Assembly (NCBI GenBank): GCA_947184155.2
Contig: CAMXCT020006756.1
Coordinates: 743,838-807,837 of the forward strand
Length of the DNA stretch: 64,000 bases
Reading direction: 5' to 3'
Origin: Cladocopium goreaui
Taxonomy: Eukaryota > Sar > Dinophyceae > Suessiales > Symbiodiniaceae
The notes under the pieces were generated by a model. The model did no database searches and was not told where the DNA came from. It was given only the letters and a program-made list of their open reading frames with translations. Below, piece after piece: positions 5,225 through 47,873 of this stretch; the stretch's first letter is position 1, and every line of letters begins with the position of its first letter. A program made the translations under genes and the position numbers.

Positions 5225-5371
5225 CTTGTGTGCTCTTATATACATAATATATATATATATTATATTATATTATATTATAATAATATTATTATAATATTAT
5301 AATATTATTATTATTATAATATCATATGATGTTGTATTGCAAATACAACATATGTATATATATATATATAC
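5225..5371. repeat. AT-rich microsatellite at the left flank of the retrotransposon
   Basis: Runs of TA, TAT and ATT units end in (TA)n immediately before the LTR-like sequence at 5372. At 5331-5349 the arms gttgtatt and aatacaac form an 8-bp inverted repeat with a 3-nt loop. The right flank of the element also starts with (TA)n, so the insertion target was probably a TA tract. Confidence 0.85.
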
Positions 5372-5576
5372 TGTGAACAATTTGATCCTTGTCCTGGCTT
5401 ATCCCTTTTGATGGTAGTACCGGTTGTGCTGGTAGTGCAGGGCTATGTCACTGCATGGCGTTCGGAGAACGGTCTTTTTCCTCGCGCATGACTTGAGCCA
5501 AGTGATTGGCAGTCCATGCATAACTGTCTACATGCTCAGCATGTGCAATGGTTGTATTACCTAGTTCCCTTTCGCG
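5372..5576 (-). repeat. 3' LTR of the copia-like element (diverged)
   Basis: This block shares ordered patches with 24266-24460 at the other end of the element, in the same orientation: tgtgaacaa near the outer edge, atccttgtcctgg, tagtacc, cttgagccaa followed by ttggc, and gttccctt at the inner edge. On the element's strand the outer end is ...TTGTTCACA, giving a CA terminus. The middle aligns poorly, so the two LTRs have drifted or come from different subfamilies. The inner boundary is placed beside a run of six G (minus strand) at 5577-5582. Confidence 0.75.
5492..5510 (-). promoter_or_regulatory. Spliced-leader-like motif / hairpin in the 3' LTR
   Basis: The minus strand reads GCCAATCACTTGGCTCAAG. 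TTGGCTCAAG matches the last ten bases of the dinoflagellate spliced leader as I know it (ending TTTTGGCTCAAG), and GCCAA...TTGGC forms a 5-bp stem. The same arrangement sits in the 5' LTR. Confidence 0.5.
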
Positions 5577-6070
5577 CCCCCCATGCCTACGTCATCTTCG
5601 AAACGTAGGCACGAGAGTGGGAACTTTGAATTAAACCCTTCTGCTGCTCGAATTACGCCTATGTACATAAAACATGCCATTCGGCTCCCCCTTCCCCACA
5701 TACCCGTCGGGAATAATGGTTCAGGGTTCGCCTACTCTTTGGCTGTCGATGCATCGGCGCTTCATCAAGCTGTACAACGCGAATTATTGCTAGCTAACAT
5801 CTACTTTTCTACGTTGGCTAAGCATGCCACTCACCCGTCGGGAGAAATGGATCACCTCGCTACCAAAGATTTACAATGCTAACTAACGAATTCACGTGCA
5901 CAATGCAGGATTTCGTGCAGATTGGGAATATCAAAAGTCATGAACCTAAGTGAATTAGTCTAATGCCTCGCTCAGAGTCCACTCAGTTGGTCTTTTCCTG
6001 ATCATCTGTTCATAAAGACGATAAACATCTTATAGTCCAGTGACCATTTTGATGGACAGAGGTAATGGGT
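5577..6070 (-). other. 3' untranslated region of the retrotransposon with candidate polypurine tracts
   Basis: This is about 0.5 kb between the ORF3 stop and the 3' LTR. A run of six G at 5577-5582 abuts the LTR and is the best polypurine-tract candidate; a second purine-rich tract (GGGGAAGGGGGAG) is at 5685-5697. The plus strand has two copies of cccgtcggga, about 130 bp apart (near 5703 and 5837), each followed by a similar atgg-containing sequence. These resemble the cccggcggga hairpin in the 5' leader. Confidence 0.55.
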
Positions 6071-7006
6071 TTACTGCTCACAGCGGACTTTCTTCCATTG
6101 AGGTGTTGTTGGAGTTTTCTCCCATCCTGCCGCACGTTTCGGAGCAGCTTTCGGCGATGAGGGCTTCGCAGGCGGTGCCTTTGATGGTTCATGGGATTTC
6201 GGCATAGCCTTAGCCTTTGGTGCGCTAGCCGATGAGGATGATGCTGAACCAGTGCCTTCAGGTTTCTGTGAAGGTTGTGCGGATGACTTGGCAAACTTGG
6301 AAGCTGCAGTATGTCCAACCGCTTTGAATACTTCACTCACCACTTCGTCGCCAAGGGTTGGAGCCATCTTCGTTTTCATCTCGGTCTTTCCCCTCTGCGC
6401 CTCGGCCTCAGCCAGTTGAATAGCATAAGCCATCTTGCTGACAAAGTTTTGAGGTAAAGGAATGCCACATTGTTGGGCGGCAAAGAGCAGTTCCACTCTC
6501 TGTTCTTTCTCCCTCAGACTCAGGTATACCGAGAAAGCTGGGAGTTCGATGCAGTTGGGGAAGCCGTGGCTCCCGGAGCGAAAGAAGGTGTATGACTCGT
6601 GCTCTGGAAAGGTTCCTTTGAGCAGTCGTCGAAGAAAATTGCTGATGGTCACTCGCATCTCCTGCTTCCCTGGGGCATCAGCCTGCATTCGGTTCATTGG
6701 CATGAGGAAGCCTAATGACTCTGGAGTGTACCCGGCGCGTACCAGAAATTCCATCATCTTCTCATAGATCTCTAAAGTCTTGATGACAGGCATCATCATA
6801 TTTCTTGGTCGTCCTGAGTACAACTTCTCTCCTTCTGACCATGAGTTCCTCTTCCCTTTCTCCTGAAAGAGTTCGTCCAACTCCAGCTCCGTCGGTCGCT
6901 TGAGGTTGCCATCCTGGTCTTCTCCTGTGTAGGGGCAGAAGTCGTCCAGGTCCAGCCGGACTCGCTTGGTTTCCGTCATCATCTCATGGTACTCCTCTGG
7001 GGTCAT
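6071..7006 (-). CDS. Retrotransposon ORF3, ~311-aa protein of unknown function
   Basis: This is the third cistron of the element. I start it at ATG 7006 (MTPEEYHEMMTETKRVRL), 19 nt after the ORF2 stop codon; the same frame is open further upstream, but there it only shadows ORF2. The first ~200 residues look globular, with an acidic start, a central region around LRRLLKGTFPEHESYTFF and a helical stretch. The last ~80 residues are low complexity, rich in Ser, Ala, Pro and Lys, ending in a basic tail, as expected for a nucleic-acid-binding or disordered tail. I recognise no family. It is in the same frame as ORF1 and +1 relative to ORF2. How it is translated is unknown; reinitiation or a separate mRNA is possible. 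Confidence 0.7.
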   Translation of the reverse strand: MTPEEYHEMMTETKRVRLDLDDFCPYTGEDQDGNLKRPTELELDELFQEKGKRNSWSEGEKLYSGRPRNMMMPVIKTLEIYEKMMEFLVRAGYTPESLGFLMPMNRMQADAPGKQEMRVTISNFLRRLLKGTFPEHESYTFFRSGSHGFPNCIELPAFSVYLSLREKEQRVELLFAAQQCGIPLPQNFVSKMAYAIQLAEAEAQRGKTEMKTKMAPTLGDEVVSEVFKAVGHTAASKFAKSSAQPSQKPEGTGSASSSSASAPKAKAMPKSHEPSKAPPAKPSSPKAAPKRAAGWEKTPTTPQWKKVRCEQ

Positions 7007-7025
7007 AGTGACTCTCTGTTTATAG

Positions 7026-10000
7026 TTAAAACCTGAACATTGTGATGACCTTTGACATGACTGCATTGTCATACAAGTGAGCCGCGGCCTCGGAGACATC
7101 ATTGTTGATAAGTCCGTCTTCTGGCATACCCTTGCTGCCGCTCTCGAGATTCTTAGTCCATGCTGGAAGTTTGGAAGAAGGTTCATCTTCAGGTTCGACG
7201 TCCATTTCATCGTCGTCTTCTTCAACGATTTCGTCGTCTTCCTGTTGAGCTTCCTCCTCCTGATCCATTTCCTCATCATCGCCTTCATTGTAGTCAACCT
7301 CGTCAGGATTGAAACCATAGTCGTTGGATTCGGATACGTTTTCTTGAGCTTGATGGACCGTATCCTTGAACAATGATTCTTCCTGTCGACGAACTTCTTC
7401 ATCGATTTCTTTCTTCGTGGCCTCATCTTCATCGTCTTCAGGAGCTTGTAGCCGATATGGACGAATTCCACAACTTTCAAGTTCCGTCCAGCAAACTAGA
7501 CACACTGCTAGCTTTGTCGGCGTCTCGTTGAGACAGTGAGGGCAATGGCGGCAACCTGAAGTTTGCACCCTTTTGCGTTCGACTATGTAGTCAATCAGCT
7601 TGATGCGGGCCAGGTATTGCTCTTGTCCGCCAGGCTCGATGAGGTTGTTCTTGAATTGGTTGACGATGTTCATGGCATCCATGGCGGTTTCGTCAAACGG
7701 TTGGTCTTCGGCGTCGATGCACTGACTTGCAACTCTCAAGATGGACTCCTTGGTGGCTACCGTTCTTGATTTGATAGTTCCAGACCGGACTACTTGGTCG
7801 TCGCCCGACGGGACGAACAACCGGAGCCATGTCTTATTGTTTTGGTCCTTGGGGTCCTGAATCCATCCTCCTTTGATTGCCGAGAACGGGATGATCTTTG
7901 GTGAAACGATCTGTCCCGAGTCAGTCAGTCGACCGCCATATTCCACCATCAAGGTCTCGGTCGGGACGAACAAGCAAATGTAGTCCCCCCTTCGTGTATC
8001 AACGCTCTTCGTGATGGTCCATGATCTGTGATCCCATGGCACATACGGGTTGAAGAACGTGAACATCCGATGACCTTCCCCAAGACCTCCTGGAATTAAT
8101 CCCTGCCTCCAAATGCTTCGGAGGTTGGTCTTCTTGGTGATGTGGAAACAGACTGGTAATGACAAAATGGTGTTGGGCGCGATTGGATGTGAAAGTAATG
8201 AGGACAGCAATGAGACGTCGTCCCTTGAAGATCCTTCTTTGTGCCCCGTAGGAGCACGGACCGCCACAGGGTAGAGCAGTAGACCTTCATCAGGGATGTT
8301 CGTGTCCGCATCGACTTTGTTGTCAATGCACGTCAGGCTGGTGCGCTCAATGTCCTTGTTGATACCAAATGCCAAGACTTGTTCACGAACACGACGTCCG
8401 TACCGGGCACAGTGGAACATGATCTTGAAGAGCAATGTCATGCGGTAGTTTGCCTCATTGACATTCCAGGCATTCTGATCATTTGCTCTTCCTTTTGGGG
8501 CAAGGAATACATGTGGCCAGCGTGCGTACTCGTGCCTCCAGATGGACTCACATTTGAGCACCTCCTCGATGGGCACCCAGCCGGCGTCATCACATGACAG
8601 ACTCTGTTGTTCTGATACCTTCCCCACGTTGTGCCGCAGGATCCTGTTTAGTGAGGTACTCACCTTGTCCTCGTAGGGATTGAGCCGGTTGCCAGTCTCG
8701 AAGCGGTAGTTGGCCGCATATTCTACACCGCCAAAGTAAGAGCAGTTGAAGAAATGGGCCCCCGTCGTCGGGATGATTTTCAAGAAACCATCTTGCGGCG
8801 CCTCGACTCTCTTGTAGAAGGGCTTCCTGATGTTGTTATCAGAGTAGCTTGCCATGAAGTCTGGCACTGACCAAGAGTCACCTCCTCCTCTGACAATAGC
8901 GTCTCGGATCACTTCGTTGAGGTCAACAATGTTCTGTGGTCCTAGCTTTGTAACATCACGTCCTTCTATGCAGAACCTACCATACTCATCGAGGTCACCA
9001 ACTTCGGACATAGTCCTGATGCTGTCGTACCATTGGTGTTCACTAAACCTCGGTTTTGTAGGTTCATCCGTTTGCCCCGACCCTTCAGTAGCACCTGAAC
9101 CGTCCTTCTTGTGCTCGGGAGGCTCCATGTCGACGTCATCAGATGTTGGACTATCAGCCTCGAGCGACGCTCGGACGGCCTTTAGCACCTTTCTGACTTC
9201 ATCCTTCTTTTCATGTCCACATTCAAGATGGCCATGTTTGGTGCTACCACAATACAAGCACACATTGACATCCTCAGAGACGGTAAAGAGTTTTCCCAAC
9301 GCATCCAAAAGTTGTTTCCCGGAAATCTCTGAGTCCCTAACTACATCGGTTGGATCATTTGCTGGCTCATCAGCTTCCTCCTCCCCAGGGTGAGCCGACG
9401 ACTCGTCACCTGGTTTGGCATCGGCGTCAGCGCCCATGCTAGCATCATTCCCTGTGATGTTGTTCTTCTTTCGATAATGAGAGAAAACCTGATCCTTCTC
9501 CCACTCCGTGAGGCAGCAGAAGTTGGCCAGTGAATCATATCCGGGGATTGCGTGGATGATCTTCATGACCCTTTCAGCTTCTGCGGTTTGCAGTGTGCAG
9601 TCGAAGGATCCCCGTCTCTTGTCATTGATGGTGCTTGAGGTTCTGGAGGTCGACGTGAATTGAGCCAATGCCTTTTCCAATCCATTGAGATATTCTGCTG
9701 GATCGACACTTGCATTGAAAACATCCACGACTCCTTTGGCCATATTTGCCACGTCCAAGACACCAAGCCAGAACTCGATGATATCTCCAGTTTTCTCGGC
9801 TGATGCACGGGAGAATCCAAAAATCTCGTTCCTCTCCTTCACCTCGGGAACGGCAACCTTTTCGAAGAAGTCTTTGTATGCGACATTTCCGCAATCCTTC
9901 GTGACTCTGTAGATCAAGAGCCACTTCTTCGCGACATCATCGAAAACTCTTTCGCGATAGATGCTGAATTGCTTGCCGCGTCCGTTTCGGAAAATTTCCA

Positions 10001-13000
10001 AAGCTTGTCTCTTCGAAATTCTGACTCCTCCCATGTGAGATAGAGATTTCATCAAGTGCTCCCCATACGCCAACGATGCATTTGAAATCAACGAAGACGC
10101 AGTAAATGTGAGCCATGTTTGAAATCCTTGATTGATGTCAACAATGTCAACACCAAGATCCTCGAATGCAACCTTCAACCTGGCTGCAAGGAGTAGTACG
10201 GACTTCCTGGCCTCCAATGTGGGAGCTGAACGCTTGTAATGGTCCTGGGTATCGGCGGAGCAATTAATGCAATGGGTTGGTCTCGACTGGCACGTCTCGA
10301 TCTCATCCATTGTCACTGCGCCTCTGCAGCTTCCGCATAGGATGTCGTTATTCTCCTTGTCAATGGTGAACCACATGCATCGATCGGAAACCACTGGTTC
10401 CAGTTCATGGGTGCCGACCACCGGTTCGACCCAACTGGTCTTGAACCTTTTGTCCTTTGTGAATCTGTTCACGGCGGTTCCAGGGCCTCGCTGGAAGATG
10501 GTGGTGTCGTCATTTGCATAGTCACCTGGGGTCATTTCGCCTCCTGCGATCTTGAGCGCCTCAGTTGGTCCGGTCATATCCTCCAACACTTTGGCGATGA
10601 TGCCCGATTCATCAGGTTTGAACGCTCCCTCATTGAGAACTGATACATATTCCCTGTTCGTGGCACACATAAGGAAGACCCTTTGGCGAAATAGATTCTT
10701 CTCGATGACAGACCAAATTGCCGTCTTTCCCAAAGTCCCCTTCTTGGTTGTACTCAAAATTGGATATTGTTTTCCAAATTGTGAATACATTGACCGCCAC
10801 ATTCTCTGGTCCGATGTCACCAAGATCCCTTGGAGCCTCATCTTCTCAATCAGCTCATCCGCGATCCTGGACGTGACAGAGTCCATACCGTTGAACATGG
10901 AGTCATTGTTGATGGCGACCATCAGGGGTCGGGATGTAACTTGATCAAGATCGAGCACCCCTTTGACAAACTGATTCTTGAAGTCATTTTCAAGCATGAC
11001 ACAATGAGGTGGTTTCTGTTCATGAAGGAACTGCAATGACAACCAAAGGTGCACAGTTATCTGACCATCGTCGACGGTATCTGTGCTGAGATGTTGCTTG
11101 ACTTTGTCAAGTGTGTCGAGGAATTGCCGAAGGGGTCGTTCTGCTTCGGAATCATGGATCTTGAATACCTCGACACTTTCCCATCCCATGTCAGCTAATC
11201 CCATTTGGATGCCATGCGTCCCACTTTGGGTTCCCACGCGGAACATCAGGTCGGTGATAAGGATGGTCGTTCCAGCCCTGAAGTCACCTGCCAACATGTC
11301 ATGATCTCTTGGACCGCTTGGTGCTTCGATGATCCTGCAAGCAAGTGGGTTGGTGATCATCTTCTTGATGCGGCCCAGGTCGGACTGGTTGGCGACGTTC
11401 ACGTCGTGATGCCCTAGCATCATGAGCATTCCTGCTGTCGACAAATAGCATCCAGTCCGCGTCAGCATGTACTTGCGGACAATGTGGCTGTAGCACCTGA
11501 GCCAATCCTTCTCGGATATAGTGGATGCAGTGTCCTCGGTTACGACCCCCGGATTGCAAACTCCGAAGATCATGCAGGCATATGCGGTCACTCTCCTCAA
11601 ATATTGTGCCCAAGGTGCTGATCCCAATGTGCTGGCTGCTTGAGCTGCGGGTCCTTGGACGATTGATAGAAGAAAGTGATCCCGCTCGTCCATCCATGCT
11701 GAAGTGATGAACTCGGAGTTCCTTTGATCGGGCATTGATGAAGTCCTGAAAAGATATCCATTCGGTACCCGAGGAATCACCCAGTCCTTTCTTGCAGGAG
11801 GTGTAGATGGCCTTGCCTTCGATGGTGGAGCTTTTGGTGGTGGTGCACTCCCAGCTGCAGAGCTGTAACCATCGTGTCCACCGGCGGTGGAACTACTAGG
11901 CCCAGTCTGTTGTTGTTGCTGTTGTGCCCGCTGTGCATCGGCTTCCCTCTGTTGCTTGTCATTCATCATTCTGATAGGTGAAGGATCCCAACCTGGATGA
12001 TCCGGTTGACTTGGAGGGTTTCTGCCGTCTCTCGGCATCAGCGGAATGTCCCAGCCATCAATGTGGGAGACCTCTGTGGCCCCTTGGCCCATCTGTGTGG
12101 TGGCAGTGGTCGTCACATAGTCGCGAATACAGGAAAATGTCCTGTTCCGTTTCTCCACCTCCTCAAACATGCCCTGGTCGGCCCTCTCAATGTTGTAGCC
12201 CCCCAACTCCCATAGGTCGTCGCGGAGGTCGATGGCCTGTTTCATTCTGACCAGATCAGTCTTGATGATCCCGCTCAGGTATGACATTGATTTGAAGTTT
12301 TCCAATTTTGTCATCCATTCATGTAGCATCTTGGAGATCATGAGAATGGTTTGTAAATGGACAACAGCTGCCGTCCGCTCCAAGCTGAGATCATAACTCA
12401 TTGACATCCAGTCTTCCAGGACGTTCTGGACGATGATGGTTTTACCCTGGCTGCTGGTCGCTCTGGCATTGTGACGTCGGAGTGCATAGCCGAGGCTGTA
12501 GCTCTCCTCGTACATGATGTTGACCAGATATTTGATGCGGTCCTCAACTTCATATGGTTCAGGTTCCTCTCTCCGCATCACTTCAAACGACCACTTTTCC
12601 CACTTCCGACGGGCAATCTCCTCGAAGTTCGTCCTCTTTCGGATTTGGTAGCAAGAACTTCCATACGGAGGGTACGTCTGGTTCAAGGATCCTAGGTTTG
12701 TTGGGCTCGTGTTTGCGATCTTGTCGCGCAAGTCCTTGACCGTGATTTCCTTGTTGATCATACTGTTCTGCCCGGTGTAGTGGTCTTTGAGGGTGTCCCA
12801 TAGTTCATCTATTCTAATTGCGCACTCGAAGGTGCACAACATCTGCATGATGCTTTTCTCATCTGGATTTCTAGCAGCCCCTTCCACCAACTTTGATAAT
12901 CGGGCCCCTTTGTCGATGAAGCTGATGGCAGACATCTTCAACTCATTTTCGTTGGTCACTTTTGACAACATTTTCATGAGCAACCTGATTGCATGAGTTA

Positions 13001-15038
13001 CGAATGCCCTGCCACTTCTATCCATGACGAAAGCTAAGGCCACAACGACAGGAGGAGAAATCTTCACTCGATCCAACCATTCGTCGAGGTCCTTGTCCTT
13101 GTAACCCCTGAAGTTTGCCTCCTCATAGGTTGAGAATGGAGCAGGAAGGTTGTGCTCTTGTTTCTTCTCCTGGATGAGGGACAAAGTTGATTTCAGCAAG
13201 CTGATGCCTTTGGCCGCTGAAGGGATCACAAGGTCAGTTCCAGCCATTGCGAAGACCGAAGTGAGGTACGCGGAATCCGGATCCGTCAAGGCGCACCAAC
13301 GACGCAGGTAGCAGCCCGACTTCACCTTCAATCCACCTCTAACGGGATCCGGATCCGCCAATAGTGATCCACGACGTGGATACAACCTCAGCTTCACCTT
13401 CACACCGCCTCGTTGGGTGATGAAGTTAATGAATAGTTGTTCATTGATGGTCTTCTCATTAACTTTGGGTTCAAGGTCATTCACAATGATGCATGCACAT
13501 GACTTCGATTTATGGTCATTCATATCATCTGGTACTTTTGGTCGATATCTCCTTCCATAAGCGTTGTTGATCAACATTTGATTGGTGACACCTCGAAGGA
13601 TAGATCTGACAATCTTCTCGGTATATAATTGTGTTGCACGTGTTTCTCTACCCGCACATTGACCGTGGGTGTGTGAGCCATCACATTTCGCATGCAAGTC
13701 AAAGAACTTAACCCCCCACGATACGATCCTCCACGGTTTCTTGATTGCGGTCCCAACATCTTTGAATTGTGACTTCAAACCATACATGCATCCGTCAAAG
13801 TCATGCACAGTTGATTGGGTCCCATTGATCAAAAACTTCATTCTCTCATCATTCCAATAGTCGCATCCCCGAGGTAGTTCCAACAGTGCCATGGCATGCA
13901 AAACATGTACACGTTGCAGACACAATGTGAACTCTTCCCATAGCTCCCAATATAGAAGTGCTTTCATTCTGATGTTGTGTGCTGTGACCTCACTCACATT
14001 TTTGTTTAACCGATTCCACGGTGAACCACCGGTGCAGGGTCCCGCAAAGAACACGCAGTCACTAGGACCCCTGATGCAACGCCTCCATTTTGCCCTTCCG
14101 TAGTTGGACATGAGGTTGTCATCTTCGGTAATCGTGACCACATGCATCATCTTAAACCGACTCTGTTTGTGAATCTTGGTGATGATACTTTGCGTTTCGG
14201 CACACATAAGGAGCAAGCATGGGATATCATCCTTCATCTCATAGACGTTGAGTGATATGGTAACGTCATTGAGTATTTTCCCGAGAAAATCAGCATAGGA
14301 TTGCTTGAAGTGATACGTCAAAATCTTCCCATTCTTTCGATGTAGATTCATCTGAATATCCCAATCATTTTGTTTTCTGGTCTCATGCTTCAACTTGTAA
14401 TGATGGGCTATGAACATGTCATCCAACGGAATGATTTTCATGTTCCCATCAAGGATACAGGTGACCACAGTGTCCTGGCACGATGCCCTGTCCTCCACGT
14501 CAGACCCGCTGTCCATCACATCTTTGATGTCTGCATTGGATATGATCTTGAAGGTAGTGGTCCCTGTCCAAAATTCATTTCTTTTATTGGTCTTCTCGAT
14601 GTTATTCCCCACCAATCTCCATGGGTCGTGGATCAATCTCCCACTTGACTGAAACACTTGGTTGGTTTCCCGTTCATCTCTAAACCGTCTCAGCTTACAT
14701 GGCAGAAAGTCAGCCTCTTTGGGGGTAAACATCTTTCTTCTTGGCACTTTGTGTACTCTCGTCAATGTTGTTTCATCCTTCCATATCCATTCATCTTGAT
14801 CACATTCATTTTTGGACATTTTCTTTCCCTTTCTTGATGACGCTGAGGGGTTATAGGCTTTGTCTTTTGATACCCTACCAGCAATCACGTCACCACCGGC
14901 GAATACAATTCGTCGTCGATTGGGATCTTTATTTTCTGTGGGATATGGATCATCATCGGGGTCCCCCGACGGAGGAAATCCCATTGGAAGACTAGAACAA
15001 CTCGAAGGAGCGTGTTGATCACCCGAGCAGTACCACAC
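7026..15038 (-). CDS. Retrotransposon ORF2, 2670-aa protein with zinc clusters and a Tpt1/KptA-like domain
   Basis: An uninterrupted 2670-codon frame follows and overlaps ORF1 by 154 nt in the -1 frame. Starts are possible at 15038 or at 14984 (MGFPPSGDP). Residues 1-1000 are of unknown type. A Gln/Ser/Pro-rich linker lies near 1020-1090. A CxxC zinc-ribbon-like cluster starts at C1568 (LCGSC ... HCINC). A zinc knuckle, C-x2-C-x4-H-x4-C, starts at C1927. An acidic and helical stretch surrounds it. Residues ~2125-2395 resemble RNA 2'-phosphotransferase. A second ribbon (CRHCPHC ... CLVC) is at 2496-2516, and the C-terminus is strongly acidic. The length, the lack of stops over 8 kb and the spacing to ORF3 argue it is a real product. 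Its role is unknown; RNA binding or RNA-end processing for the element is an inference from the zinc clusters and the Tpt1-like fold. Confidence 0.85.
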   Translation of the reverse strand: MWYCSGDQHAPSSCSSLPMGFPPSGDPDDDPYPTENKDPNRRRIVFAGGDVIAGRVSKDKAYNPSASSRKGKKMSKNECDQDEWIWKDETTLTRVHKVPRRKMFTPKEADFLPCKLRRFRDERETNQVFQSSGRLIHDPWRLVGNNIEKTNKRNEFWTGTTTFKIISNADIKDVMDSGSDVEDRASCQDTVVTCILDGNMKIIPLDDMFIAHHYKLKHETRKQNDWDIQMNLHRKNGKILTYHFKQSYADFLGKILNDVTISLNVYEMKDDIPCLLLMCAETQSIITKIHKQSRFKMMHVVTITEDDNLMSNYGRAKWRRCIRGPSDCVFFAGPCTGGSPWNRLNKNVSEVTAHNIRMKALLYWELWEEFTLCLQRVHVLHAMALLELPRGCDYWNDERMKFLINGTQSTVHDFDGCMYGLKSQFKDVGTAIKKPWRIVSWGVKFFDLHAKCDGSHTHGQCAGRETRATQLYTEKIVRSILRGVTNQMLINNAYGRRYRPKVPDDMNDHKSKSCACIIVNDLEPKVNEKTINEQLFINFITQRGGVKVKLRLYPRRGSLLADPDPVRGGLKVKSGCYLRRWCALTDPDSAYLTSVFAMAGTDLVIPSAAKGISLLKSTLSLIQEKKQEHNLPAPFSTYEEANFRGYKDKDLDEWLDRVKISPPVVVALAFVMDRSGRAFVTHAIRLLMKMLSKVTNENELKMSAISFIDKGARLSKLVEGAARNPDEKSIMQMLCTFECAIRIDELWDTLKDHYTGQNSMINKEITVKDLRDKIANTSPTNLGSLNQTYPPYGSSCYQIRKRTNFEEIARRKWEKWSFEVMRREEPEPYEVEDRIKYLVNIMYEESYSLGYALRRHNARATSSQGKTIIVQNVLEDWMSMSYDLSLERTAAVVHLQTILMISKMLHEWMTKLENFKSMSYLSGIIKTDLVRMKQAIDLRDDLWELGGYNIERADQGMFEEVEKRNRTFSCIRDYVTTTATTQMGQGATEVSHIDGWDIPLMPRDGRNPPSQPDHPGWDPSPIRMMNDKQQREADAQRAQQQQQQTGPSSSTAGGHDGYSSAAGSAPPPKAPPSKARPSTPPARKDWVIPRVPNGYLFRTSSMPDQRNSEFITSAWMDERDHFLLSIVQGPAAQAASTLGSAPWAQYLRRVTAYACMIFGVCNPGVVTEDTASTISEKDWLRCYSHIVRKYMLTRTGCYLSTAGMLMMLGHHDVNVANQSDLGRIKKMITNPLACRIIEAPSGPRDHDMLAGDFRAGTTILITDLMFRVGTQSGTHGIQMGLADMGWESVEVFKIHDSEAERPLRQFLDTLDKVKQHLSTDTVDDGQITVHLWLSLQFLHEQKPPHCVMLENDFKNQFVKGVLDLDQVTSRPLMVAINNDSMFNGMDSVTSRIADELIEKMRLQGILVTSDQRMWRSMYSQFGKQYPILSTTKKGTLGKTAIWSVIEKNLFRQRVFLMCATNREYVSVLNEGAFKPDESGIIAKVLEDMTGPTEALKIAGGEMTPGDYANDDTTIFQRGPGTAVNRFTKDKRFKTSWVEPVVGTHELEPVVSDRCMWFTIDKENNDILCGSCRGAVTMDEIETCQSRPTHCINCSADTQDHYKRSAPTLEARKSVLLLAARLKVAFEDLGVDIVDINQGFQTWLTFTASSLISNASLAYGEHLMKSLSHMGGVRISKRQALEIFRNGRGKQFSIYRERVFDDVAKKWLLIYRVTKDCGNVAYKDFFEKVAVPEVKERNEIFGFSRASAEKTGDIIEFWLGVLDVANMAKGVVDVFNASVDPAEYLNGLEKALAQFTSTSRTSSTINDKRRGSFDCTLQTAEAERVMKIIHAIPGYDSLANFCCLTEWEKDQVFSHYRKKNNITGNDASMGADADAKPGDESSAHPGEEEADEPANDPTDVVRDSEISGKQLLDALGKLFTVSEDVNVCLYCGSTKHGHLECGHEKKDEVRKVLKAVRASLEADSPTSDDVDMEPPEHKKDGSGATEGSGQTDEPTKPRFSEHQWYDSIRTMSEVGDLDEYGRFCIEGRDVTKLGPQNIVDLNEVIRDAIVRGGGDSWSVPDFMASYSDNNIRKPFYKRVEAPQDGFLKIIPTTGAHFFNCSYFGGVEYAANYRFETGNRLNPYEDKVSTSLNRILRHNVGKVSEQQSLSCDDAGWVPIEEVLKCESIWRHEYARWPHVFLAPKGRANDQNAWNVNEANYRMTLLFKIMFHCARYGRRVREQVLAFGINKDIERTSLTCIDNKVDADTNIPDEGLLLYPVAVRAPTGHKEGSSRDDVSLLSSLLSHPIAPNTILSLPVCFHITKKTNLRSIWRQGLIPGGLGEGHRMFTFFNPYVPWDHRSWTITKSVDTRRGDYICLFVPTETLMVEYGGRLTDSGQIVSPKIIPFSAIKGGWIQDPKDQNNKTWLRLFVPSGDDQVVRSGTIKSRTVATKESILRVASQCIDAEDQPFDETAMDAMNIVNQFKNNLIEPGGQEQYLARIKLIDYIVERKRVQTSGCRHCPHCLNETPTKLAVCLVCWTELESCGIRPYRLQAPEDDEDEATKKEIDEEVRRQEESLFKDTVHQAQENVSESNDYGFNPDEVDYNEGDDEEMDQEEEAQQEDDEIVEEDDDEMDVEPEDEPSSKLPAWTKNLESGSKGMPEDGLINNDVSEAAAHLYDNAVMSKVITMFRF
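7867..8680 (-). other. Tpt1/KptA-like RNA 2'-phosphotransferase module inside ORF2
   Basis: Tpt1/KptA enzymes use NAD+ to remove an internal RNA 2'-phosphate through an ADP-ribosylated intermediate. They consist of a winged-helix lobe and an ADP-ribosyltransferase lobe. ORF2 shows both in order. Lobe 1 has LNRILRHNVG with R2135-H2136 at the place of the family's catalytic Arg-His pair, then CDDAGWVPIEEVL, the family's D-x-GWV-x2-x-LL signature. Lobe 2 has VCFHITKKTNLRSIWRQGL (H2299), then a G-rich strand, an Arg pair (R2349-R2350) before an ICLFVP strand, and a terminal IIPFSAIKGGW. The family's QGHS motif is not evident. Fold assignment is moderately strong; activity is not shown. Confidence 0.7.
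13262..13416 (-). repeat. Internal tandem duplication within ORF2
   Basis: Two ~75-bp units in frame encode GGVKVKLRLYPRRGSLLADPDP and a related segment with GGLKVKSGCYLRRWCALTDPD (around residues 542-592). Each starts beside a doubled ggatcc. The units differ by many substitutions, so the duplication is old but has kept the frame. Confidence 0.75.
14885..15038 (-). promoter_or_regulatory. ORF1/ORF2 overlap in -1 frame
   Basis: ORF1 stops at 14885 while ORF2 has its first ATG at 15038, one frame back. This geometry would suit -1 ribosomal frameshifting, or coupled termination and reinitiation. I did not find a clear X-XXY-YYZ slippery heptamer; the run CGGGGGACCCC near 14958-14968 is the nearest candidate. 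Mechanism undetermined. Confidence 0.45.
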
Positions 15039-18000
15039 GGAGCTGCATGAATGGTTGTGGGTTCATTTCCATGGGATTGATGACAAAATAGTTGACCTAC
15101 CCCCACAGTTAACTGAGGATACTTCAGGACGTGAGTCTGACGAGTCGGCACCGCAGCAGCATGGAGCCCTTGTCGTGCTGTTGACGCCAGGTGTCCCGGT
15201 GAGACAACACCAGCTGATTGCCTAGTAATCACCGACGGTGATATACTAAATTGACACGGATGGTATTGGAAACAAGCTCGTTCTACCCATTGATCAAAAC
15301 GGTCTTGTTGTTGAACGGGTGGAACTCGATCCTCAACCTTGATCCATTTGCCATGAGAAAGTATCCAGGTACTTCTCAAACAATCATGAGGCAATGATAC
15401 ACCAGGTGGTCGCTTTCTAAAGAAAGTTGGCGTCTTAACAACCAATATGGGATCCATACCAGGTAGTTGTTGTACTTGTTCTTTACCAGAAAGACCCTTC
15501 TGATACACCTCAGGTGGTAGAATAGGTATTTCGGTATACGGAAAATTTGGAACATCTTGAGTTTTGGTTTGAAACACTTGTCGGACAGTGGTATCAACAT
15601 CCGTGGTGGGTGAGACCATATCGAGCAGATCTTTCGTACCGATGTCACCAGGGTCCAACAGGTTGATGAGCATACATGCTCTTTTCCATGCCAACGGATT
15701 CTTGAAACCTTTGGTGTGAATGTCAGCGGCCATTTTCGAGGTCACCTCATACATGAGTACGTAGTTCTCCCGAGTGAAATGTTCATGGAGGGAAGTAATG
15801 GCTATGCCATGGGTCCTCTCAAGATGCCGCATAGTGGGGTTACGACCCGACCTGACTACACCGATCATGCCCTGATTGTCATCATGAAACAATAATTTGG
15901 GCGACTTTCCCGTCAGCGTTTCCCAGATGCTCATTGCGGGCAAACCCATAGTACGGAGGGTGACATCGGCTGCAACGATTTCGGCCTCAGGCGTCGAATG
16001 GCTTACGCATCCTTGCCGTTTGCTGCCCCCGGACAAAGGAAACCGAGTGTGGTTACCCTGGATATGCATATGAGACCCTGAAGTTGATCTCAAAGACTGG
16101 GCACACCCTGCAAAATCAGCATCAGCAAATAAGGACAATGTCAATTCATTGAAGTTGTCCCCAACCCATCCTGTCATTCTTTTAGGTAGGCTGGAATTCA
16201 CGTAGCACATGAAGTGATACAACTTTGCATCGTCATCAATGGTCCACTTTGTTACATTCCTGGCCAGGGAATTAATGGAACGAAGCAGATCAAAACGAGC
16301 AATCCTCGCCGCGTACAGCAGCTTCATCAACACGCTAGCAGCGTGTGGCGCTAGTGCACCTCTCTCAGACTCCCCAGGCGAGACGTCTTCCCCTTGGGTT
16401 CCTTGTTCATAAAACAATGGAGCGTCCGGATCAAACTCATGAGTGCACCATGGACAAACTTTCTTGTTCTTGGGGTTCCCGGGACATGGTGCTCTGGACT
16501 TATGCTTCTTTGTTTCTTCAGGTAGACTTGGAGTGGATACGTGTTTCAACTTCGTATCTTTTCCAACAATGTCCAAATACTTCTCAACTGACAGCTTCAA
16601 CAAACCTTCCATGTCATAGGTCATGGTTGACACCGGGGTTCCATCATGAAGTTTGGTAGATCCCTTTCTCAAAATACAACCAAGATAGAGTCCTAAGTCA
16701 GTCTCGGGCTCGATGTTGAGTTTTGATCGAAGCATCTCCCAACCCTTAGTCAGGTTCTCTTCCGGTCCTGCCAGCTTTAAGTCGTCTACATAGATGACAA
16801 GAAGTAACTTCAGTTTCTTGTGAAAATACATTGAGGGCCATTCTTCTCCAACAGGAACGAAGTCGAGTTCACGAACTTTCTGATCACAGTGTTGTTCCCA
16901 CATTGTTCCCGAATCGGGGTGACCATATAAAGCTTTAACCAATCTTACAACTGGTCTACGGAACTTTCGAATATCGACATCGTCTGGCCATGCATCTTCA
17001 GGTAGCTCAACCCAACATGGTGGTCCGGTTAGTTTTGCTTGAATGTATGCCTGAATGGCGTCGGCAAGTTTTACATTATGGCCTGGAAGACACCCATAGA
17101 AATCAGCCCATCTCGATGCCTCAAAAGTAGCTGGAGAATTGCCCAAGTCCTGGAAGAAGGCAGCCTCCCAGAATTGGTTCTTCACCTGGTTACCAAGCAA
17201 GACACCTCGGCCTTTGAATTTTCTACTGGGACTTCCTGCAGGCAACTGATAGTTTTTCTCAACACAGATACCATGTACTCTGGCCATGTGAACCTCTGTC
17301 TTGTTTGCCTTTGCTTCACGAACAACGTCATCATATTCTCTAACGACACTGAAATCGTAGACTCCAGCAGCATGTTGACCTAACCATTCCTTCCTCATAG
17401 CTTTACGTGCATCATCGTTTTCCATCATTTCCTTTCGACCAACAGGCCTTGCCACTGCAGTGTTGAACATCTTATTGATATTGATTCCGTCACCATTTGA
17501 AGTTAGCTTTTCTCGATGATCATCACAATGACTAATGCATGGCATACATGGAAATGGAAGGAAAACATCACTGAGGCCACGAGCGTCTTGGGGTGCTTCG
17601 TTGGTGCTGTGCAATGTCGCAGCAGCCACCACCTTCCCCTGGTTGAAGTCATACACTTTGTCGTTGTTCCATGTGGCTTTTGGTCCCTTGCCCTTCTCGA
17701 TCTCAGACCATTCGTCCCACTCCATCAAGAAGTCATCATCATCAGGTACATCAGTATCTGATAGATCTGAATAACATGGAGCAGAGGCAGAGATCCCTCT
17801 CCCGACGGGAGAAACGGACCCTTTCCCATACTGAAAAACCTTGCCTCTTCGGACGTAGTCTTGGGACATGGCCACTCCGGAAACGTGATCGTCTTTCTTG
17901 GATGATTTGGCTTTCTTTGCTTCTTTCTCTTTCTTCTTTTCTTCTTTCCTCTTTGCTCGCTCCTCACTTTCCTTGATTTTCGCGTCACTTTTCTTCTTTT

Positions 18001-21000
18001 CCTTTTCAGCTTCAATCTTCTTCTCTTCGGCCTTAGCGATCCCTTTTCTGACAGTTGGTGACATCTTCCTCCACTCGTCAGGGGTATACTTCGAAGGCCT
18101 TGGAGTAGTTGATATTCTGCGAAAACCACGTTCATCAATACGATATGGATGACCGCGAGCATTGAGCTTCACCCATTCACCATCGTCATTCAGGTATACG
18201 ACCCCATCCCCAGCCTTCCCAACGGAGTAGTGTTCTGGTCCTCCTTCTGGAACATGAAGGTCTGGATGTGCTGGCTTATCGATACCTGGTGGTCCCAATC
18301 TTTCGGATATTGCGTCAAAGTGCCTTTCAGCTTCCAACTCTCCCTCAGTTGGTTCACGTGGGACCTTCGACGAAGGTTCACCACCGCCACCATGGCCATC
18401 GTCATCGTCTCCACCTTCATCATCATCATCATCATCCGGTGGAGGTGGCGGTAGAATTTCTGGGTTTCCTTCAAGACGATCTTTCACTTTCAATCCTTCA
18501 ATGGAAACATTAATCCTTTCATACTCTAACTTGCATGGGAATTCAAGGGGTTCCTTTAGTTCAACCCTTTCAGTGTAGTGCGGAGTCCTCAGCTTGGCGA
18601 TGGGCTTCTCTGCATCATAGGCCAAGTTCTGCTTACTCCAGTCACATAGCGCCCATACCCTGTACTTTCTTGACCAATGGAGCCCGGGACCAATGGAGTA
18701 TCCGGCGAACACTCCGGGAATTCCCATAGGGTCAAACTTGTGTTGTTGTTCTCGTTCACGTGAACCACTGGGCTTGAAGTACACGAGGGCACCAAAGGGT
18801 ATCATCTTTCCTTTGAATTCTTCTCCATGAAGTTTGCACCAAGAACTCACCTCATCGTCGTTGGGCTCGATGTTGAGCAGATGGCTAACGCATCTGATGG
18901 CATACATCCAAAAGCATGGTGGAATTCCTGCCTCAAGTAGACACGTTGTTGTTGCCACGAGCACGAATTGGTTAGTTCTTTCTGCAAGTGAGTTGTGCTT
19001 GGTCTTTCCGGCCAAGGAAGTGTCCATTGGGATCTTTAGGATCTTCATTGCCTTGTCGAACTGTGGGGCATCATCGGAATATGCTTCTCGAATCTTACGA
19101 CGGCCCATGAACTGTTTGACCGCACGTATGACTGCATCAGTGTCCTTTCTGGCAGAAGGGTAAGACTGAAGCATCCCCGTATATCTATCCCTGATGACAA
19201 AGATGGTTTTGTCGTCGCCATAGTCCTGTTCAGCAATCCGACGATTGTCAACATAGTCGAATGTGATCAGGTCCCCAAACTTTGTGAGCTTGCACTGAAA
19301 TGCTCCTCTGAACGTTTTCCTGTGCTTCATCTTGGCACGCACGCACGACTCACAATATGGGTTCTTATAGCGATGAGTTAGAAGATGAACCTTCGATCTT
19401 GCTTCATTCTTCAAAGTTCCCCTCTTACTCAACCGAACTCCTCCATCTTCCTCATCAACATCAATGACATCATCGTCATCTTCACCTCCTCCATCTTCAG
19501 GAATTTCTTCAACTTCAATTTGATGATCTTCACGGATATCATCAGGTGCGATGCTGGGATCGTATCCGTCGTCCTCAAACTCGGCATATTCATCGGCATA
19601 GCACGACATTTCCTCAGCATCACCGGCATCACTTCCAACAGCCACTTCATGTTGATCACCTCTTAATTTTGCTTTCTTACGCTTCTTCATTGATCTTTTG
19701 GGAGATTTAACATCGGATCGTCCAACGGAGTCGGAAAGATCCTCAAGCTCATCCCCACTTTCTCCATCGATGACCAAAAGACCTTCGCCTTCTGACGTTG
19801 AGCATCCGTCATCAAGAACTGCCATAATCTTTTCCACACAGGATGATCTCAACTTTCTCTTCTCTTGATCGACGCTCACATAGGGAATGTAGTCTTTGAC
19901 GGTCATTTCGATGATGTTGCCATTGGGATCTAACATGAATGGAGTTCGTCCTGTCGGCCATACAAATGAATAGCCAAGGTCGACGCACCGCTTTCCCATC
20001 GAGAGCACGGAAGGTGTATCTTCCAGGATGTGTGCTTCTGCTGGTTCGCTGAATGCCTCGAACTTGATGTTTGAACGTTTGGTCGAACGTGTTACCCCAT
20101 TTGCTGTATGGAAGTTAACGACCTTGTCATCGTATGTTGGTAGATCCATCCTACTTATTCGTGTGGATGAAATGAGATCATGACCACTTCCAGAATCCAA
20201 TATGAATCTCTTATCTCTCTCCTCAACAGGAACAGTGATACACATTGTGTTGCCCCTTTTGCCATATCGACCTTCAATATGCTGAACATAGTTCTCCACA
20301 AAGACTTCCCTGGACACCTCATCGTCCTCGATGTCGAGTCTGATCAGAATGTCCATGCTAGGGCCGACAATGACCAGGACTTCATCAATGTCACTGTATT
20401 CACCCTTCTCATCGATCAGAATAGCCATTGCTTTCCCTCGGCTCGAAGCTAACCTGCATGAATAAGACCATTGCTCATCTTTCCTTATCTGATCAGTGGG
20501 CTTACCAACTTTACCATGACCTTTGGGGATGGTTTGGGATTTCCGGCTGCACTTCACGAAGTCCTTCTTCACGTAAGTTTGAACTTGGGTCTTAGACTCA
20601 TCGAATCTGACCTTCTTCTTGATCACGTTCGATGCAACCTTCTGGAACGTCCCCTCGTCATCACTCCAATCATGGATAAGTGCAGGAGTAGCCTTTGAGC
20701 TTGGTGCTTCGGTGTTTGGAGCAGTATTGAATAGATGAGGATCATGGCGTTTGTTGCATTTGTCTCCATACCGACACTTGCCCTTAGCCCAATGCCAGCA
20801 TGGTTCATCAATCTTCTTGGTCTTGTTTGCCGGAGATTGACTTCTTGGAGTTCCTGGCTTCCGACCATTGCCTTTTGCGTTTTTGTTCGCATCAAACACC
20901 TTTTGGTCGTGACTGTATTCGCAATCTTTGCCTTTTCTGCATGCTTTCTTGATGAAATGGAAATGGCATGGGATTTTCTTCTTGGATCTAGGGCTGGTAC

Positions 21001-24000
21001 TTCGGCTGTTTGCTCGATCCTTTCCTTTCCCTTGACCTTTTCCTTTTCCTTTCGCATGCTGTTTAGGCTGAGGTGATGGTAGAACTGGAGCTGCATCGGC
21101 CTTGGCCTTCGCCTTGGGTGCTGCCTTCTCCTTGGGAGTAGCTTTAGGCTTCGCTTTTGGATTTGCATCCGGTGCAGCAGCAGTTGGATTTGGGGCAGGA
21201 GCTGAAGGTTTGCCGCCACCTGCAAAGTCTCTTGCATACTTCTCTCTAGCGGCCACATGCTTGTCCTCTCTGATTCTGGAGATGTGCCTTTCGATGACGT
21301 CCAATAGATAGCGATAGTTTCGTCTTTGGTCTCCTTCAATCCATGACTCGTACTGCTTGATGTCAAACATCATAAGACTCGAATTTCGAATCTTCTTGTA
21401 TAGAGCATCACGAAGCCAATCATCAGGAGGTACATCATCCGGCATCATGTTTGATACCATCTCCATCCATTTTTCATAGAACACTTCCAGGTTTGAGTCA
21501 CCGAGATACTTCATTGATACGATGTGCTCCATAGTGAAGGCTGTCTCTCGTTGACCTGGGGTTCTGAAGTGCTCCAGGATCATAGCCAAGATTTCCCGTC
21601 CCATGACATAGGTTCCTCTTCGACTATGACTTTGTGTCCTCAATCTCAATTTGATCGCTACATGACGAGCAACATCACCGGCTTGGGCTATCACATTTGA
21701 CAATGCAATTGACAACTTGGCGTCGATTGACTGATACCGTTGCCCTCCACTGTCATTCAATAGCTCGATGTCAGGATTTGGTCGAATAGCCGGTTGTAAC
21801 CATGCTTCCCATGCGGCTTTGTCCCCATCATTTGCGGAAAGAACAACACTCTTGATGAGATCTGATTGCCAAACCCCAAGATTCTGTTGTTTCGGCCATG
21901 GGCTGACATAGACTTTGTCAGCCTCCCGTCTTGACATTCTCGGCACTTCTTCTGCAGTGTAAGCTGCTGTGGAGACATCATCTGCTGAATCGCGTTGTGA
22001 TCCTCGAACTGAAGGCAAACCTGGAGGTTCAGGAGGTGGTCCTGGACCGTTAGGTCCGAAAGGGTCAGGAGGTCCATCAGGGTCAGGCGGACCGCCCCAT
22101 CCACTCGGTGGCTTGTAGTAGTCCCTCTCAGTTCCATCAGCGATCTTGTTGTCCACCTCTTTCAGCAGATCAGTGATTCTTTTGCTTGATTGAGAAGGTT
22201 GTCGTTGAGGAGGTACAGCATGTTCACGATAGGAATGAGCCACATTTGTCTCATAGTTCAACTCCTTGTCGATCTGCGAAACCCAAGACTTCAGAATAGC
22301 GTTTTCACAGTTAGCCTCACTCACGTCATTCTCCAGTTTGTCGATGACTAGTCTTGATGCGAGATCGTAGTTGGGAATGCCTGCCGAATAGGGAAGTGTG
22401 TCAGGGCTGACCCTAGATATGGATGTTTCAGAATCCTTGAGACTCTTTCTCAGTTCATCTAAGTGACGTTTCATATCCATAATCTCAGAATTCTTGATAC
22501 CGATCTTTTCATCCCTATCCTGGATTTCCCCCATGAACATGCATGATCTCTCATATTGCTGAACACCACTAGCCAACTTCATTTTGCGCTCACTCTCTAG
22601 TTCAGATTTTAGAGTTCGGACCTCAGCATTGGTGAGGGACGACGTCCCTACATCCGCAACTTCAGCCAACCTTTCTTTTAGCAACAAGTTCTCTTGTAAA
22701 CATTCATGAACTTCATGATCTAGATCCTGAACCCTGATTTGAGCGATTTTAGCTTGATTACGTAGATCTTCAACAAGCATCTCATCGGGGCCACGACCGT
22801 CGGTCGTAATACCCTGAGTCAACGATCTTCGTAACTTCGTGTTCTGCAACTTGATCTCATCCTTTAATTCGCAGTTCATCTCCTGCTCGTTGGCATAGAG
22901 CTCCTCATAGTGCTCTGCCCTTGCGATCGAGTTTGCACTAGCCTGTGATTCAAGCCTCAGGTGTGATATTGCTTCGGCCTCTTGGTTCCTGTATGATGCA
23001 ATTCTTCTGACGGTATCATGTTCAGTGTTTCGATGCTTCAGATCACTTTCCAATTTGGCCTGATTTGCCTCGAAAACCTTCTTCCTAGATTCTCTAGTGA
23101 TCTCGTCGATACTGCTCTCATACAGCTCGGCCTGTTTACGAGACTGAACCAAAGCTTCACTCAATAGCTGATTCCGTTCAGATAATTCATGAACTGCAAT
23201 TGATTGTTGTTGGCTAATCACTTCAAGTTGATTGCTAGAGAAGGATGCCATTTCGGATCGATTACGATATTCCATGATTGAGTTCTGGAAATCTGTTTGC
23301 ATTTCTTGACCTTCGTTGTATAGTCGATTGGCAATATCGGTGGTTAAGACATTGGTTTGATGAAGTTGTTGCAGTCTTGCCTCCGTATTACCCAATAGTC
23401 CTTGAAGGTGATGTACTTCATCCTTGTACTCCTCCTGGATCTCCATACCACGTTGATGGATCCGTCGTGCACCATGTTCCATTAGGGCACCTCGGCGTTC
23501 AAGGTCTTGGATGCGTATTGTTGCACCTTCGTCTTCCTGAGATGCTACCATTAGTTCTGCTTGATATTCTGCAACCTCATTTGCGGAACATGACAATCTA
23601 TGATTGAGTGCATTGACCTCATCAAATACATTCTGGTTGTGTTCCCGAAGATACTCAGTGAATCTGATCTCGATGTCATGAATCAGTTGATCCCTAGATG
23701 CAGCATATGCTTCCATGTTGTTCAGCTGATTACGTAGGGATTGACATTGTGCCCGTAGTTCTTCTATCATGGCAATAGGTTCACTAGCCACAGAAGTATC
23801 CGTTGATCTCCTCTTAACACGACTATCCCCGGTCCTCTCACCAATTCGGTCGGTCACGGCCCTGGTGGATCTGTCCCTTGGAGTAGTACGTCCTCGAGAT
23901 GGTCGATGCCCTTGGCGGACAACATCACTCCGAGCACTGTTTCGAGAAGATCTAGGTGTACTTTGGGTGGATATTCTTCGTCTGTTTGATGTGACTTGCC

Positions 24001-24100: not shown

Positions 24101-24265
24101 TGAAGGTAAACTGCGTGGTGCGCGAATCTCCGCTGCCGCCTTGCATCTTTGCGATGATGAGCTGATTGGTCCTTTGCGTCCTCAATCAATTGCTCAAAAG
24201 GCCCGGCTACCAGCACGCAGGTACCACTCTCCCGGCGGGAGAAGTGAGCCCTACGGCTGATAACC
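24101..24265 (-). promoter_or_regulatory. 5' leader of the retrotransposon with candidate primer-binding site and hairpin
   Basis: This lies between the 5' LTR and the ORF1 ATG. Directly after the LTR the minus strand reads GGTTATCAGCCGTAGGGC. Its start resembles the initiator-Met tRNA primer-binding site common in copia elements (TGGTATCAG), but not exactly. At 24228-24242 tctccc-ggc-gggaga makes a 6-bp stem with a 3-nt loop. A short upstream frame begins at 24185. Confidence 0.5.
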
Positions 24266-24460
24266 TGTGAACAAATGAATCCTTGTCCTGGATGTTATTT
24301 CAGACCTGTAGTACCCTTGCTACTGGTAACCGACAAATGCCATGCGGAGTCACACGACGCATTCCTTTTCTCCATACGCTTGAGCCAATGTTTGGCGGTC
24401 ACAGCATGTTGTTTTAACACTGCATGCTGTACATGTTGTTTCACCTCGTTCCCTTTAACA
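24266..24460 (-). repeat. 5' LTR of the copia-like element
   Basis: On the element's strand this 195-bp block begins TGTTAAAGGGAAC and ends TTTGTTCACA, i.e. TG...CA. It matches the 3' block at 5372-5576 in ordered patches. The outer side runs directly into a TA microsatellite. The motif GCCAAACATTGGCTCAAG (24379-24396) keeps both the spliced-leader-like tail and a GCCAA/TTGGC stem despite the divergence around it. Confidence 0.78.
24379..24396 (-). promoter_or_regulatory. Spliced-leader-like motif / hairpin in the 5' LTR
   Basis: The minus strand reads GCCAAACATTGGCTCAAG, whose last ten bases equal the end of the dinoflagellate spliced leader; the preceding bases (ACC-GCCA) also loosely follow it. 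It could be a spliced-leader relic captured from a trans-spliced transcript, or simply a conserved stem-loop. Confidence 0.5.
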
Positions 24461-31400: not shown

Positions 31401-32137
31401 TCTTCCCTCTTTGAGGGCGTAATCCAACGACAAATATGTCATGCACAGTGTTGATGCAATGGCAACTGACTGCCCAGCCTGAAGCTGTGAGTCTGTGAGT
31501 CTATTAATTCTTGGCATAGCTCTCAAGCAACATGCACAGCTCGACAAATGTGCCTGTTTTCGGGATCAAAATCTGACTTCAAACAGCTTTTGGAGCGCCT
31601 TGGCATAGAAGGGAGCATATGGATGACAAACCCCCTTAAACTTTGGATCAAATGTGGTCAGGCAAATCAAAAGCTTTTGTGGGACAAGAGCGGACAAGCT
31701 TAACATTGTCAAACAACAAAACCGTTTTGCAATGGTTTGCTTCTTTCTTAAAGAACCATTGAACTACAGTTTTTTCCTGCAAAACAGCCATGGTTAATGC
31801 AACAGGAATCCAGCAGGTTTGGCCCCCGTTTCAGGCACATCTACCACCACAAGCTACAAGTATCACAACGAAAGGTTTGACAGAACTGTCAAAGTGGGAC
31901 CAACTAGTCAAACACCATGAATGATCATGGATGGATAGAGCAACAAACCAGTATACACATGCCGCATGCCTGTTATATCAGATTCTTTAGTTTGTTCCAG
32001 CTTGGGTTCGGCTTCTGTAGTCTGCAAAGTCCCCTTCAACTCGACTCAAAACATGGCCACTCTGTTGTAAATGGAAAGCACCATAATACGCATAGGTGAA
32101 ATCAGCAACCAAAAAGTGCATGTGTTTGCCCGCTGAT
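28403..32137. other. Intergenic DNA, no supported gene
   Basis: Open frames here are short and lack splice context. A (GT)n tract is at 30482-30498. I see nothing convincing on either strand. Confidence 0.5.
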
Positions 32138-32430
32138 ATATCCATCCATCTATCTATCTATCTATCCATCTATCTATCTATCTATCCATCCATCTATCCA
32201 TCTATCTACCTAGCTATCTATCCATCTATCCATCTATCCATCTATGCATCCAACCATCTATCCATCTATCTATCTGTCTATCCATATATCCATCTATCTA
32301 TCTATCCATCCATCCATCTATCTATCTATCCATCTATCTATCTATCCACATATCTATCCATCCATCTATCTATACATCTATCTATCTATCTATCCATCTA
32401 TCTATCTATCTATCCATCTATTTATGTATC

Positions 32431-32461
<31 letters not shown>

Positions 32462-32506
32462 CTGTCCATCCATCTATCTATCTATCTACCTATCTATATA
32501 TCTATC

Positions 32507-32537
<31 letters not shown>

Positions 32538-40960: not shown

Positions 40961-40961
40961 A

Positions 40962-41176: not shown

Positions 41177-41246
<70 letters not shown>

Positions 41247-47872: not shown

Positions 47873-47873
47873 C

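Follow-up and report, generated by a model that had tools for sequence, protein, structure and literature searches.

Domains of the RNA 2'-phosphotransferase family Tpt1/KptA have been reported in phages, in Bodo saltans virus, in sawfly nucleopolyhedroviruses, and in the polyproteins of a few RNA viruses, within which they are proposed to process RNA ends (PMC9503650; this and the other published systems are cited here from excerpts of the papers). The presence of Tpt1 in bacteria has been called puzzling (PMC6333775). We analyzed a stretch of 64,000 nucleotides from the dinoflagellate Cladocopium goreaui (GenBank assembly GCA_947184155.2, contig CAMXCT020006756.1, positions 743,838 to 807,837 of the forward strand), which we call the window. 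It contains a Ty1/copia-type long terminal repeat (LTR) retrotransposon of approximately 19 kb (about 24460..5372, minus strand), and a Tpt1/KptA-like domain is built into the polyprotein of this element downstream of the reverse transcriptase (RT). The domain is under purifying selection. We lean toward the view that it serves the element as an NAD+-dependent eraser of 2'-phosphates, which would keep the element RNA or its primer copyable by RT.

The window domain shares with Tpt1/KptA proteins (PF01885; CthTpt1, PMC6333775) the order of its conserved blocks: LRH, GW, (I/V)RA..GH, H.T, GL, an Arg after GL, and an Arg before a strand. It differs from them in its place within a retrotransposon polyprotein, in having HIT for HGT, and in long insertions in the RNA lobe. 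Two viruses, the Beihai picorna-like virus and the Botrylloides leachii nidovirus, likewise carry KptA in the polyprotein of an RNA-replicating element (PMC9503650); those are positive-strand RNA viruses, whereas the window element is a nuclear LTR retrotransposon with more than 100 near-identical copies. Among dinoflagellate retroelements, SymbioLINE-Dnmt and SymbioDIRS-Dnmt3 also hold a captured enzyme domain in many copies (PMC5890265), but the enzyme in the window is a different one, of a kind that acts on RNA, and its carrier is an LTR/copia element; the excerpt of PMC5890265 describes LTR/copia elements as having no DNMT domain. Drosophila copia and yeast Ty5 are Ty1/copia-type elements with a primer-binding site (PBS) that matches the anticodon arm of a tRNA rather than its 3' end (PMC5371799). 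In the window family this is a resemblance only, our genome searches found no matching tRNA gene, and the excerpt of PMC5371799 mentions no RNA-repair domain for copia or Ty5. In the open-access literature, judged by title and the start of the abstract among the matches listed, Tpt1/KptA in a retrotransposon was unreported. The element is of a known kind, LTR retrotransposons that have captured an enzyme, and, as far as we searched, Tpt1/KptA is new to that setting.

Remote homology of the domain to Tpt1/KptA

A sequence-only reading of the window had pointed to Tpt1/KptA motifs carried by a retrotransposon. The motifs are real, and they belong to a 2678-amino-acid (aa) open reading frame (ORF; 15062..7026) of the minus strand.

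7026..15062, minus strand: ORF2, 2678 aa from stop to stop, with the Tpt1 domain near its C-terminus
7869..8663, minus strand: Tpt1/KptA-like domain, placed by the PF01885 match and hhalign, with ends estimated from the alignments

The domain corresponds to approximately residues 2134-2398 of the ORF2 frame and consists of an RNA lobe with LRH followed by an ADP-ribosyltransferase lobe with HIT. Its motifs are located at residues 2142 (LRHN), 2158 (DDAGWVP), 2267 (AVRAPTGH), 2305 (CFHIT), 2318 (WRQGL), 2325 (GGLGEGHR), and 2360 (DYICLFVP). We compared a 342-aa piece containing the domain (8795..7770, minus strand) with PF01885 (PTS_2-RNA, Tpt1/KptA), for which the cut-off is 26 bits. The piece alone scored above this cut-off (30.6 bits, E 4.2e-7), which upholds the Tpt1-like identity, and all 11 copies of the piece that we examined matched the profile (best E 6.4e-8). 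The whole ORF2 frame scored below the cut-off (24.2 bits, E 3.9e-5). When the 11 copies were aligned by hhalign with seven Tpt1/KptA proteins, the probability was 76.9 (E 2.1e-5, 146 columns), compared to 0.5 (E 0.13) for the control, for which we took the two 342-aa pieces that come next in ORF2. Identity of the window domain to host and bacterial Tpt1 is approximately 23-28%. An NCBIfam profile search of ORF2 gave no match, PDB sequence searches returned no Tpt1 chain up to an E value of 1, and scans of viral contigs with ORF2, E. coli KptA, or the domain as query found no relative. The relation of the window domain to Tpt1/KptA is real but remote. We considered a chance match and ruled it out because the hhalign control was negative and the 342-aa piece is under purifying selection.

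The carrier is a Ty1/copia-type LTR retrotransposon

Carriage of the domain by a retrotransposon, which the sequence-only reading had also proposed, was borne out by LTRs, a PBS, a polypurine tract (PPT), and a copia-type RT. The remaining features of the element are as follows.

14885..24100, minus strand: ORF1, 3071 aa, with CCCH zinc fingers, a weak aspartyl protease, integrase, and copia-type RT
6071..7495, minus strand: ORF3, 474 aa from stop to stop, no Pfam family
24266..24460, minus strand: 5' LTR, TG...CA, ends set against four other copies
5372..5576, minus strand: 3' LTR, first bases of the window copy differing from TG
24248..24265, minus strand: PBS GGTTATCAGCCGTAGGGC, directly 3' of the 5' LTR, the same in four other copies
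5577..5587, minus strand: PPT GGCATGGGGGG, adjoining the start of the 3' LTR, the same in four other copies

Pfam matches of ORF1 were zf-CCCH_4 (E 3.8e-6), Asp_protease_2 (weak, E 0.0035), and RVT_2 (E 4.8e-7; 30.1 bits, slightly below the cut-off of 31.6). Its integrase was seen by eye, together with a weak SH3_retrovirus match (E 0.093) upstream of the RT, and its N-terminus looks coiled-coil-like by eye. The terminal repeats (24260-24456 and 5366-5572) are identical at 150 of 183 positions and align with a score of 121; 300 shuffles of one side gave a mean score of 45 (standard deviation 7.4, maximum 78). In the four other copies whose LTR ends we read, the LTRs are 185-199 bp long and run from TG to CA, and the two LTRs of each copy are identical at 199/199, 185/185, 195/198, and 197/197 positions. 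A 5-bp target duplication is readable in three of these four copies, in one of them within a simple repeat; in the fourth it is not readable, and in the window copy it is not clear. Because the locus combines LTRs, RT, and many copies, we rejected the possibility that it is a host gene instead of an element. At approximately 19 kb, the element compares with roughly 5 kb for copia and Ty5.

The two LTRs of the window copy are identical at 146 of 180 positions, a difference of approximately 19%. We rejected an old dead insertion as the explanation, given that the Tpt1 piece is 96-100% identical to that of the other scored copies. A more probable cause is exchange between copies or a join made in assembly, since the LTRs diverge while the coding region hardly differs from that of other copies.

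Outside the Tpt1 domain, ORF2 has one weak Pfam match (PA2794-like_C, E 0.072), and approximately 2000 of its residues belong to no recognised family. By eye, the domain is preceded by a CCHC-like knuckle (CLYCGSTKHGHLEC) and followed by a zinc-ribbon-like cluster (CRHCPHC...CLVC...C).

Copies of the domain and their conserved residues

We searched one host genome of 1,165,616,438 bases in 6202 contigs. The 342-aa piece gave 118 scored matches among 1011 candidates, all of them full length and 96-100% identical, and none of the 118 scored copies has a stop codon in the Tpt1 piece. Thirteen of them have an open frame of 6045-6068 aa. In those copies, ORF1, ORF2, and ORF3 presumably form one polyprotein, because 6048 aa equals 18,144 bases, which is near the whole inter-LTR interior; the frame of the window copy would then be broken twice. 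Going by these frame lengths, intact copies probably have ORF3 as the C-terminal end of this polyprotein.

From the 118 copies, we read ten Tpt1 pieces in addition to that of the window. Nine of the ten were picked among the lowest entries of the list, so the sample used for residues and selection represents the divergent part of the family rather than a random draw. Across these 11 copies, 31 of 342 residues are variable, and 55 pairwise comparisons give a pooled pN/pS of 0.10 and a median ratio of nonsynonymous to synonymous divergence (dN/dS) of 0.087. Dinoflagellate elements do take up host-type domains, as Symbiodinium LINE and DIRS elements with DNMTs show (PMC5890265), and the Tpt1 domain could in principle be a passenger of this sort, a Tpt1 exon taken from the host that is copied along but does nothing for the element. 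Such an origin is strongly disfavored by 118 stop-free copies out of 118 scored, a dN/dS of approximately 0.09, and the occurrence of the domain in unlike element types (see below), and we regard it as highly improbable.

A sister family (C125) was found through its PBS, and its Tpt1 domain was read at the expected distance. It shares 216 of 338 residues (64% identity) with the window family (dS approximately 1.9, dN 0.29) and scores 29.6 bits against PF01885 (E 8.9e-7); at another sister-family locus, C6051, the domain is split over two frames. Eight catalytic-type residues are invariant in all 11 window-family copies (numbering of the 342-aa piece): R54 and H55 (LRH), R180 (VRA), H185 (GH), H218 and T220 (HIT), R243 (GHR), and R268 (first R of TRRG). 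The second R of TRRG is K in three of the 11. The sister family keeps all eight but not the second R of TRRG, and at two of the Arg positions the neighbors have changed (EGHRMFT versus TSWRIFT; DIERTSL versus DIDRNSP). In the 11 copies and in the sister family, the HGT motif, which in Tpt1/KptA binds NAD+, retains its His and Thr, with Ile in place of Gly.

In CthTpt1, the tetrad consists of R18, H19, R68, and R121, and R18, H19, and R121 contact the 2'-phosphate and the junction phosphate (PMC6333775). The sequence-only reading had proposed a check for an Arg-His-Arg-Arg set conserved across copies. The equivalents of R18 and H19 are secure and are kept. That of R121 is aligned in three alignments but not clearly in hhalign, and that of R68 depends on the alignment, being R2240 in two (including hhalign) and R2223 in another; neither R2240 nor R2223 varies among the copies or in the sister family.

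These residues bear on two other ideas of what the domain does. It might ADP-ribosylate the 5'- or 3'-phosphates of RNA or complementary DNA ends, giving them a protective cap or a mark, instead of erasing an internal 2'-phosphate. The presence of HIT for HGT and the long insertions depart from standard Tpt1 and could fit another substrate, but the equivalents of the phosphate-contacting residues R18, H19, and, in three of the alignments, R121 are kept, and we consider end marking unlikely. Alternatively, the domain might be a Tpt1-like fold that is no longer an enzyme and serves to bind NAD-like ligands or RNA, the latter in packaging or in the choice of template. The Arg, His, and Thr positions that stay invariant where their neighbors change argue against a binding-only domain; in its favor are the remote similarity, the Gly-to-Ile change, the long insertions between conserved blocks, and the loss of the tetrad His in a second copia-type family. 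We judge it to be improbable.

Tpt1 domains in other element families of the genome

A search of the genome with PF01885 gave 1496 candidates, and 150 of the 150 that were scored pass the cut-off. From these 150, we read eight loci and nine fetched places (C2112 and C2623 are in both sets); Pfam scans covered five of the nine. The three best loci look cellular, one host-like and two bacterial-like; L008, with an open frame of 335 aa, is probably the host's own Tpt1. A second copia-type family, represented by C241, has a single 4025-aa frame with CCCH fingers and a Tpt1 domain at 45.3 bits, as well as weak matches to protease (E 0.0098) and to RVT_2 (E 0.0086), and C1597 has a frame of 4028 aa. 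At C5927, an ORF with RVT_2 (45.4 bits) adjoins an ORF with Tpt1 (57.5 bits).

Three further places carry Tpt1: C2112 and C2623, with weak Phage_integrase matches (E 0.094 and E 0.022, respectively), and C945, where Pfam gave no Phage_integrase match. The C-terminus of C2623 includes, by eye, a recombinase-like H.LR...Y stretch, and a YxDD motif was not found in the long ORFs of any of the three. Tyrosine-recombinase elements probably hold the Tpt1 domain too, besides copia-type LTR elements. Of nine pairs from other families, five have a dN/dS of 0.03-0.14, one has a dN of 0, and three have a saturated dS. In a tree of 17 Tpt1 rows, the nodes bearing on a single origin of all Tpt1 domains have supports of 48-60.

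Because other kinds of elements in this genome carry Tpt1 too, the data suggest that RNA mending helps such elements copy themselves. The presence of Tpt1 in elements of unlike replication type also agrees with a need not tied to RT, such as counter-defense or host-RNA repair, in which the domain would mend what host nucleases have cut, be it host tRNAs or element RNA. A role of this kind has been proposed for KptA in phages and RNA viruses (PMC9503650), but ligase, 2H phosphoesterase, and polynucleotide kinase were unmatched in the scanned ORFs of the window and of five of the nine fetched elements, and we hold counter-defense to be rather unlikely.

We also noted several large elements (L016-L019 and L026-L027) with Tpt1 and a recombinase-like C-terminus and without a recognised reverse transcriptase, an unclassified element type. 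In addition, this eukaryotic assembly includes the bacterial-looking contigs C1 (7.4 Mb, locus L010) and C5523 (locus L009); we took C1 to be bacterial because it holds most of 40 tRNA matches and a bacterial-looking KptA (L010).

The primer-binding site and a possible tRNA primer

A 14-base PBS core (GGTTATCAGCCGTA) is present in nine elements of three families: the window family and the second copia-type family contribute four each, and the sister family one. Its complement (TACGGCTGATAACC) can be drawn as a 5' stem, a seven-base loop (CTGATAA), and the start of a 3' stem, like an anticodon arm. Drosophila copia and yeast Ty5 are primed by an internally cut tRNA (PMC5371799). Some of our genome searches for the tRNA primer had no match. 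One gave nine sites, eight of which continue into an LTR end and the ninth of which starts like one. Another gave ninety sites, and ARAGORN identified none of the ten inspected as a tRNA gene. A further search gave eleven, one of them on the bacterial-looking contig C1, and the others inspected were the LTR-end sites found earlier. Five tRNA-bearing stretches had no match to the PBS core; in the window itself, Rfam gave no match and ARAGORN no tRNA.

One version of the preferred reading would make the Tpt1 domain part of the reverse-transcription machinery, with a tRNA cut in the anticodon arm as the primer and the phosphate at the cut or splice junction removed to allow extension. A need to clean cut tRNA primers would account for Tpt1 in different dinoflagellate elements. 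We nevertheless think this specific version has a low probability.

A possible role in keeping RNA copyable

Judging by sequence, the domain is probably catalytically active. It would then keep Tpt1 chemistry, that is, NAD+-dependent removal (or ADP-ribosylation) of the phosphate left after RNA cleavage and healing-type ligation. In the preferred reading, 2'-phosphate removal could act at either of two places. Element RNA that has been cut and rejoined by a healing-type ligase would bear a 2'-phosphate that could stop RT, and the Tpt1 domain would clear it; or the primer would be a tRNA cut in the anticodon arm, with an end or splice junction that needs cleaning. With 2'-phosphates cleared, RT could start and pass. 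We put forward a role in reverse transcription, with template and primer taken together, only tentatively.

Several observations weigh against 2'-phosphate removal in aid of RT. Within the domain, the Gly of HGT has become Ile and the position of Arg68 is ambiguous, neither Arg68 candidate is invariant over all rows of a 13-row alignment, and the tetrad His is lost in the second copia-type family. An RT-tied role may not cover all families, because tyrosine-recombinase-type elements carry Tpt1 without an RT motif in the ORFs read. Our genome searches for a tRNA gene with the arm implied by the PBS found none. Cleavage by RNase P leaves no 2'-phosphate. It is RNase P to which the internal tRNA cut in Ty5 has been ascribed (PMC5371799).

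If the preferred reading of 2'-phosphate removal is true, an RNA-repair enzyme joins the retrotransposon toolkit and has been spread by the hundreds through a nuclear genome. The domain would offer a direct handle on how reverse transcriptases handle 2'-phosphates and on the primer of these elements. With respect to Tpt1 function beyond tRNA splicing, elements that keep Tpt1 under purifying selection are a testable case.

Other features of the LTRs and the window

An 8-mer (GGCTCAAG) that forms the 3' terminus of the dinoflagellate spliced leader is present in all six LTRs that we looked at (5372-5576 and 24266-24460 in the window; L036, L038, L040, and L042), despite strong LTR divergence between copies. 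The sequence following the PBS core (GCCGTAGGGCTCA) resembles the spliced leader too. Capture of a trans-spliced leader by the LTR is one possibility. The dinoflagellate spliced leader has 172 exact matches in the genome, compared to 0 for a reversed control, in keeping with a dinoflagellate host.

A G+C-rich, palindrome-like stretch (CCCGNCGGGAGAA) lies inside both element ends (5827-5849 and 24224-24246; 23 bases, 87% identical, E 0.12), and a similar G+C-rich stretch lies near 5700; these are possibly an RNA signal. Elsewhere in the window, long tandem arrays at 45039-48283, 32044-32531, and 40948-41253, with spacings of 16, 8-12, 12, 30, and 72 bases, overlap several other listed ORFs.
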